Shown here piece after piece: positions 30,865 to 31,612 of a DNA stretch of 64,000 bases (positions are counted from its first letter, which is position 1; each line of letters opens with the position of its first letter). The notes beneath the pieces were generated by a model. It searched no databases. It saw nothing but the letters and a program-made list of their open reading frames with translations, and was not told where the DNA came from. This stretch comes from Lacipirellulaceae bacterium (GTDB lineage Bacteria; Planctomycetota; Planctomycetia; Pirellulales; Lacipirellulaceae). The translations under genes and the position numbers were made by a program. Location: the NCBI GenBank assembly GCA_040218535.1, contig JAVJRG010000005.1:1922001-1986000 (forward strand). Reading direction: 5' to 3'.

Positions 30865-30904
30865 GCGCATCAACGTAGCAGAAGCGCGAGATCGCACAAC
30901 CGAC

Positions 30905-30983
30905 GTTCGTAGTTCCGCCTTCAGGCGGCTAGGAATTACCTGATCTCGTAACCTTAGAGCCGCCTAGAGGCGGAACTACGAAC
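30905..30983. repeat. Inverted repeat, family A, copy 1
   Basis: Arms 30905-30930 and 30958-30983 are 26 bases each and complementary at 24 positions (core gtagttccgcc...ggcggct). The left arm is identical in sequence to the reverse complement of the right arm of the copy at 34781-34871. Short reading frames through it are artefacts. Confidence 0.9.
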
Positions 30984-30984
30984 T

Positions 30985-31029
30985 AAAAAAGAAGCAGCCC
31001 GATCACTCAAGTTGAGCAATCGGGCTGCT
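30985..31029 (-). terminator. Strong intrinsic terminator of the candidate ncRNA
   Basis: On the minus strand AGCAGCCCGAT/ATCGGGCTGCT forms an 11-bp stem (30993-31003 with 31019-31029), followed by CTTC and TTTTTT. Confidence 0.88.
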
Positions 31030-31275
31030 GTCGTAGGGTTGCTTTGAGTGCAGGCGTCGGAAGCTGAAGCGTCCTCAGCGGGCGCTCGAAAGCAGGTGGT
31101 GGCTGTCACCGTGGACAACCCGCCGGAGGTCAACGGTTTGCACCACCTCTTTGGCTATGATTGATAGAATTCAATTGACCACCTCCTTCCGTAAAACATT
31201 GTTGCGGCGGCCTGTGACGCAGCCAAGCGTCTCAAGCGGCCCGATAGCCCGTCGTGTTGCGTTCACACGACCCGT
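30985..31275 (-). ncRNA. Candidate structured RNA with mini-ORF and competing ribosome-site pairings
   Basis: A predicted transcript of about 290 nt from the -10 box at 31282 to the terminator at 30985. It holds GGAAGGAGGTGGTC (31177-31190), close to the full complement of the 16S rRNA 3' end, and seven bases later a TTG that opens a 14-codon frame (31130-31174; MNSINHSQRGGANR). A second AGAGGTGGTG lies at 31141-31150. Downstream, CACCACCT (31094-31101) can pair with either AGGTGGT copy, and GTTGACCTCC (31125-31134) can pair with the first. A further hairpin GGTTGTC-cacggt-GACAGCC lies between the arms. Mutually exclusive pairings are the mark of an attenuator or regulatory RNA. It matches no RNA family I know. 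The mini-ORF may be a leader peptide. Confidence 0.5.
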
Positions 31276-31281
31276 AGCAGC

Positions 31282-31312
31282 ATTATAGTCACCGGCGAGC
31301 CGAAAACGGCAA
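31282..31312 (-). promoter_or_regulatory. Candidate promoter of the structured RNA
   Basis: On the minus strand a consensus TATAAT occupies 31282-31287. TTGCCG (31307-31312) could be the -35 box, but the spacer of 19 is long. Confidence 0.5.
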
Positions 31313-31429
31313 GAGCGATCTGGCGATTTTCTGGGAAAATTGCTGCAGCACACTGAATAGACCGTGGACCAGAGGACTAGGTTCACAGTTCGTCTTGAAA
31401 TATCCAATCCTCAGGCCGAAAACGCACCC

Positions 31430-31612
31430 ATGCAACCCGAAGCCTCCTACACCTGCGACAGTTGCGGCGAGGAAATCGTCGTCCCCATCGACATTACCGC
31501 TGGGACGGAGCAGGAATACGTTGAAGACTGCCCCGTCTGTTGTTGCCCGAATGTGATTCGCGTTTCATTGGACGAAGAGGGTAGGGCGGAGGCATCTGGG
31601 GAGCTGGAATGA
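31430..31612 (+). CDS. CPXCG-motif cysteine-rich zinc-ribbon protein
   Basis: A 60-residue protein with two cysteine pairs: TCDSCGEE near residues 9-12 and EDCPVCCCPNVIRV near residues 33-38. This is the small 'CPXCG motif-containing cysteine-rich' family, expected to bind one zinc ion; its role is not known. ATG 31430 starts the family-like part directly; a frame extending back to 31364 adds residues not typical of the family. It is convergent with the RND pump gene, whose stop is 7 bases away, so there is almost no space for a terminator. Confidence 0.85.
   Translation: MQPEASYTCDSCGEEIVVPIDITAGTEQEYVEDCPVCCCPNVIRVSLDEEGRAEASGELE

Follow-up and report, generated by a model that had tools for sequence, protein, structure and literature searches.

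A single-copy, doubly pseudoknotted RNA gene of planctomycetes with an embedded mini-ORF and an extended Shine-Dalgarno site, a candidate for gating by the ribosome

What kind of RNA carries a very strong ribosome-binding site, a very short reading frame and a terminator? The question is raised by the minus strand at 31275-30985 of the window, the 64,000-nucleotide stretch of a Lacipirellulaceae genome analysed here, where a preliminary description had pointed to a candidate regulatory RNA with competing pairings. The overall observation was borne out and proved larger than noted; covariance models carried this discrete RNA to the level of the order and the phylum. The locus is a stand-alone RNA of about 290 letters, with a structured body between a -10 box and an intrinsic terminator. 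The -10 box TATAAT (31287-31282), read directly on the minus strand where it had been reported, is kept in an alignment of 16 home-family sequences, and the RNA would be expected to start near 31275, the seventh base past it. A consensus scan listed no minus-strand promoter at the RNA start, hence there is no canonical -35. The strong terminator (31029-30985) was also found as claimed, with a 17-bp stem at 31029-30993 followed by a T run at 30990-30985. A terminator-like hairpin lies 3' of the RNA in 74 of 84 order loci (32 of 36 in the home family, 42 of 48 in other families), in a scan run without a shuffle control, and folding of the RNA strand beats 200 of 200 shuffles (z -5.54). The upstream neighbours are a divergent gene for a small Cys-rich CPXCG protein (31364-31612, plus strand) and an AcrB-type transporter gene (34778-31620, minus strand), while downstream a gene for a 148-aa protein without Pfam family (30864-30421, minus strand) is followed by an isocitrate-dehydrogenase-like gene. 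On the plus strand, a promoter-like site (TTCACA, 16, TATAGT; 31262-31289) overlaps the -10 region of the RNA and could be the promoter of the divergent CPXCG gene. Directly behind the terminator, a palindromic repeat (30919-30984; GTTCGTAGTTCCGCC ... GGCGGAACTACGAAC) looks like a REP-type element, as 25-27 nt of it match eight further places in the same genome.

Using blastn, the RNA was found in 16 of 39 genomes, corresponding to 16 of the 24 of the home family (own genome included) and none of the 15 of other families. The covariance search of related planctomycetes suggested in the preliminary description reached further. Model R1 (16 sequences) matched 37 of 43 family genomes and 82 of 196 order genomes, and model R2 (52 sequences) matched 127 of 246 order genomes (101 of 184 among the more complete ones) and 63 of 392 phylum genomes. 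Model R3 (58 sequences) matched 81 of the 392 phylum genomes, of which 8 belong to the order, 28 to other orders of its class and 45 to other classes. Given the genomes without a match (119 of 246 in the order with R2, 311 of 392 in the phylum with R3) and some families of the order that gave zero matches in these searches, universality of the RNA in the order or the phylum is not established; strict filters were applied above 40 genomes, and the distribution counts are probably too low. Because the models contain SD and start-codon columns, their matches are biased toward having both. Five of the 63 R2 phylum hits (G239, G270, G288, G306, G413) were not recovered by R3, and the one in G239 (L190), which has no SD, is probably a false match. 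Some rows were dropped from the order loci, namely a split match (L102), weak second matches in L045 and L076, and L037, which is the window locus itself.

The gene is present as a single copy. One match per genome was obtained for all 81 phylum hits with R3 and for all 37 family hits with R1. Two matches were returned for G102 with R1, where one locus was split (single with R2), and for G191 with R2, where the second match is a fragment at a contig end. Within the window, only the RNA locus scores with the model, at 99.2 bits, the next best reaching 8.3 bits (E 2.9). Furthermore, an exact pattern derived from order members and searched with no restriction of taxon in the genomes of 84,980 species gave 67 hits. 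The titles of 66 of them refer to planctomycetes or to planctomycete genera (Adhaeretor, Bythopirellula, Aeoliella, Rhodopirellula, Roseimaritima), and the remaining one reads just "bacterium". Phylum-wide single-copy structured RNAs are few, and the best-known ones belong to central machinery.

The near-complete anti-16S site that had been noted at 31190-31177 is an extended Shine-Dalgarno sequence, GGAAGGAGGTGGTC, which pairs with 14 consecutive nt of the genome's own 16S 3' end (GGCTGGATCACCTCCTTTCT) when G-U pairs are allowed and over 9 nt with Watson-Crick pairs alone. It is the longest match between the RNA and its own 16S. The RNA is the one place in the 5.36-Mb genome where the SD motif with the start codon, AAGGAGGTGRTCNNNTG, occurs. 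Across 137 loci examined, AAGGAGGTG was found in 127 and the exact 14-nt complement of 16S (AAAGGAGGTGATCC) in 9, the latter being present also in 6 of 20 held-out loci. The SD core contains most of the invariant columns of the phylum alignment, and the distance from SD to start codon is nearly constant, with an SD segment of 16 letters in 91 of 103 loci. In the home family, the SD can be buried in the predicted consensus fold. We also considered whether the CGRCGGG loop pairs with the decoding region of 16S; such a pairing was absent among the long RNA:16S matches and is not claimed.

Such a site could mean that the RNA is a 30S-docking decoy, clamping the 16S 3' end to hold or store small subunits, with an ORF that just lets ribosomes clear. 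The length of the 16S match, the uniqueness of the pattern in the genome and the invariance of the SD core all fit this explanation. We nevertheless consider it unlikely, because the RNA keeps a frame, a stop codon and a nearly constant distance from SD to start codon, all needless for a pure decoy.

The TTG mini-ORF of 14 codons (LNSINHSQRGGANR; 31174-31130) is present as described, with its start codon at 31174-31172 and a TGA stop at 31132-31130. An ORF of 10-15 codons stands behind the SD in all 85 order loci, scanned over lengths of 9-19 codons. In 81 of 84 order loci (L057, without anchor, being left out of the count), the distance from the start codon to a downstream GGTGG-type motif is 24, 27, 30 or 33 nt, the exceptions being L101 and L103 (19) and L097 (26). 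These three exceptions were left out of a 103-locus ORF set, in which the start codons are GTG (55), TTG (47) and ATG (1) and the stop codons TGA (49), TAG (29) and TAA (25), always 12 or 15 nt past the motif start. This set includes 22 loci pre-filtered for frame, the unfiltered frame evidence being the 81 of 84 given above. They come from further loci examined (52 of 62 matches), of which 30 were kept out of the set, 10 with GGTGG in another frame and 20 in which the script found no ORF holding GGTGG or GGTGC. In addition, 20 fetched R3 hits outside the alignment of R3, which are not wholly independent of it, all have the SD, a start codon (ATG 10, GTG 8, TTG 2) and an ORF of 10-14 codons when scanned over 6-25 codons. 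Spacing that shifts by whole codons, together with interchangeable stop codons, is what a translated frame would be expected to show, and we strongly infer that the mini-ORF is translated.

Whether the peptide itself is the product is a separate matter. The RNA could be a dual-function RNA, or a plain mRNA, for a peptide of 10-15 residues, as suggested by the presence of the ORF in 85 of 85 loci and by one position at which Arg is encoded by CGA, AGA, CGG and AGG. The order-level pattern is M-x-x-x-C-x-S-Q-R-G-G-x-x, and the BLOSUM score of the peptides, 2.65 (permutation mean -1.60), was reached in 133 of 2,000 column permutations, which speaks against a conserved peptide as the main product. 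Moreover, GGTGG stands out of frame, at offset 19, in eight loci as well as in L101 and L103, and the mini-ORF peptides of other classes are unlike those of the order. Loci L101, L103, L171-L174 and L179-L182 keep GGTGG in a different reading frame, and their peptides (e.g., MCSGNQRWLA) are not of the QRGG type. The peptide sequence thus appears poorly constrained, and we regard a peptide product as quite unlikely.

The structure was analysed on two alignments, A3 (52 order sequences; 52 of 53 loci chosen from 84, L054 left out) and A4 (58 phylum sequences; 58 of 60 prepared, L186 and L153 left out). The 5' hairpin P1 (31271-31251), with an ACGC-type loop, has each of its pairs altered on both sides in some of the 52 order sequences, and its main helix is 97.1% paired in these and 87.9% paired in the 58 phylum sequences. 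Two pseudoknots, each backed by a swap test and by covariation, connect the ORF with its surroundings. In PK1, the loop TTGGCT (31226-31221) pairs with AGCCAA inside the ORF (31156-31151). Between P1 and the SD, the exact complement of a locus's own ORF 5-mer was present in 69 of 82 loci vs 783 of 4,684 swapped combinations (L101 and L103 left out), with exchanges such as TTGGC/GCCAA, CTGGC/GCCAG, CTGGT/ACCAG and ACGGC/GCCGT; it was missing in 13 of the 82 loci and lay outside the expected loop in a few others. In PK2, GGTGG inside the ORF (31147-31143) pairs with CCACC (31102-31098). The tail carries the complement in 61 of 81 own combinations vs 29 of 774 swapped ones (L075 left out as well), and GGTGG itself is replaced in only 5 of the 81 loci; exchanged pairs include GGTGG/CCACC, GGAAG/CTTCC and GGTTGA/TCAACC.

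Behind the ORF, two hairpins compete for one strand. Hairpin a:b (31131-31114), with a GRCG loop, lies at and just past the stop codon, and the window forms 5 of its 7 pairs. Hairpin b:c (31120-31101) joins GGTTGTC (31120-31114) with GACAGCC (31107-31101), beside the PK2 strand, and has two bases in common with PK2, the first two of CCACC. Since strand b is common to both hairpins, they are mutually exclusive, and both covary. Mutually exclusive pairings, as anticipated in the preliminary description, therefore exist. On A3, the combined structure of P1, P2, PK1, PK2 and b:c has 85.0% of cells paired (shuffled 77.5, slid 27.7-50.6), 22 of 27 pairs changed on both sides and a covariation of 0.328 (shuffled 0.181, slid 0.053-0.098), while P2 is poorly paired at 43.0%. 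Taken alone on the 52 sequences, PK1 is 93.7% paired with a covariation of 0.232 (shuffled 0.141), PK2 98.8% with 0.168 (0.080), b:c 90.4% with 0.488 (0.231) and a:b 79.8% with 0.411 (0.281); in the 58 phylum sequences, P1 and a:b together are 87.3% paired with a covariation of 0.492 (0.250), all of these covariation scores being without tree correction and inflated by shared ancestry. The number of pairs changed on both sides was reached by 72 of 500 shuffles for a:b, 120 for b:c, 75 for PK1 and none for PK2, so that these counts do not go beyond shuffles for the first three. Common ancestry swamped a ranking of all column pairs by plain mutual information, which was not used.

The two pairings that had been proposed to mask the SD fared differently from PK2. 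The element CACCACCT (31101-31094) had been thought able to pair with either of two AGGTGGT copies. The second copy is present, at 31148-31142, and its pairing with CACCACCT is PK2, with the swap-test result given above. The pairing with the first SD scored 0.082 on the 52 sequences, the same as shuffled (0.082); it is part of the consensus fold predicted for the home family and may hold inside that family. The second proposed mask, GTTGACCTCC (31134-31125), is particular to the window: just 1 of 52 sequences has its central A-U pair. Hence, compensatory changes were seen for CACCACCT with the second AGGTGGT and for neither of the SD-masking pairings. PK1 and the a:b/b:c pair, which the preliminary description had missed, are the better-supported candidates for a switch.

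At the level of sequence, these comparisons demonstrate a discrete single-copy gene with a fold, an SD and an ORF; a two-state behaviour of the RNA and its downstream effect we only infer. With a confidence that falls somewhat short of even, we favour a free-standing RNA in which ribosome loading or translation would gate the fold. Once the extended SD had captured a 30S subunit, translating the mini-ORF would pull out PK1 and PK2, which the ORF forms with the preceding loop and the following strand. By geometry, translation would have to open both pseudoknots, as each has one strand inside the ORF. A ribosome terminating at the stop codon would presumably cover strand a, which would shift the balance from a:b to b:c. 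Two states would result, one ribosome-free and knotted and the other ribosome-bound or translated, and segments that act elsewhere or set the stability of the RNA would be exposed in just one. The opening of the pseudoknots would be the signal, with a presumed target. Against gating stand the weak P2, the loci without the PK1 complement (13 of 82) and the SD that can be buried in the home family, which would oppose ribosome loading. We know of no free-standing, translation-gated RNA switch of such kind.

A broader form of this proposal is that the RNA serves as a planctomycete-wide ribosome sensor. It would gauge either start-site occupancy or, by pairing fully with the 16S 3' end, free and intact 30S subunits, and a passing ribosome would refold the doubly pseudoknotted RNA, which would act in trans. 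We put this forward as a possible reading that we would, on balance, doubt. Its appeal lies in a message and a pseudoknotted RNA written in the same letters, so that translating means unfolding, next to a near-perfect complement of the ribosome's 3' end. If it holds, a whole phylum of unusual bacteria would read the state of the ribosome directly by RNA. The RNA is small, genetically simple to test and present in cultivated species.

The genomic context bears on the attenuator reading of the preliminary description. When ORFs were clustered over flanks of about 1.5 kb at 85 order loci, none of 80 downstream and none of 91 upstream clusters span two families. Single-family clusters do exist, including one of 22 home-family loci with a gene of the 30864-30421 type and one of 12 loci of family f15. 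As a cis-acting attenuator or leader, the RNA would control the downstream gene 30864-30421, and in 24 of 85 loci (22 with stricter clustering) it is indeed followed by a co-directional relative of this gene. All of these loci belong to the home family, and in other families 42 of 48 loci keep the RNA together with a terminator-like hairpin. As no flanking gene cluster spans two families, a stand-alone gene is suggested rather than an attenuator, which is disfavoured for the window to the point of being highly improbable; attenuation of a downstream gene was rejected as a general role, the downstream gene being kept in the home family only. On the other side of the RNA, a divergent gene for RtcB (PF01139) lies upstream in 20 of 37 home-family loci (e.g., L010:1929-3113). 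E. coli RtcB has been reported to rejoin the 16S 3' end after cleavage by MazF, and finding RtcB beside an RNA complementary to the 16S 3' end is suggestive. RtcB was not retained as a partner gene, as it is absent beside the RNA in the window and was found in none of the 100 further loci scanned, for some of which only about 500 bases of flanking sequence were covered.

In agreement with the preliminary description, which had matched the RNA to no known family, Rfam 15 gave no family above its gathering score in the window or in 15 relatives. A lax Rfam search of 30880-31420 returned three matches with E from 1.5 to 5.5, far under the cut-offs. The ORF lying inside pseudoknots recalls tmRNA (RF00023), in which an ORF is likewise embedded in a pseudoknotted RNA, and no Rfam 6S (RF00013) match was found at the locus or in the genome, which is weak evidence of absence as the model detects 6S in 5 of 14 control genomes. 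That the RNA is a divergent form of such a universal RNA seems next to negligible: neither Rfam nor ARAGORN found a tmRNA at the locus (ARAGORN finding no tRNA there either), Rfam was also negative in the 15 relatives, and the genome has a separate, genuine tmRNA elsewhere, above the cut-off, so that a tmRNA identity was rejected. Unlike tmRNA, the planctomycete RNA has its own SD and start codon.

Among candidate RNAs of planctomycetes, the Rhodopirellula-1 motif, as far as its available description goes, is listed as cis-regulatory, occurs in Proteobacteria too and has no Rfam accession (PMC2864571); it is alike as a planctomycete candidate RNA and is set apart from ours by description only. 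A literature search, largely outside subscription papers and bioRxiv preprints, found no prior description of the planctomycete RNA. Its free-standing design, in which an ORF serves as a pseudoknot strand, fits no kind known to us, the distinction from Rhodopirellula-1 again being one of description. RNAIII is a dual-function sRNA and likewise a small stand-alone transcript carrying an ORF. The same likeness holds for SgrS/SgrT and VcdRP in the available parts of their descriptions. Compared with these three, as far as those descriptions extend, the planctomycete RNA differs in being spread over a phylum, pseudoknotted and equipped with a near-perfect anti-16S site, and in an ORF whose 10-15 codons encode a poorly conserved peptide. 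Leader-peptide attenuators and ribosome-sensing leaders, such as those of the erm, trp and mgtL types, resemble it in their short ORF, strong SD, exclusive hairpins around the stop codon and terminator. Unlike them, the planctomycete RNA has no downstream gene common to families, and it combines a stand-alone single-copy gene with an ORF that is itself a strand of a pseudoknot.
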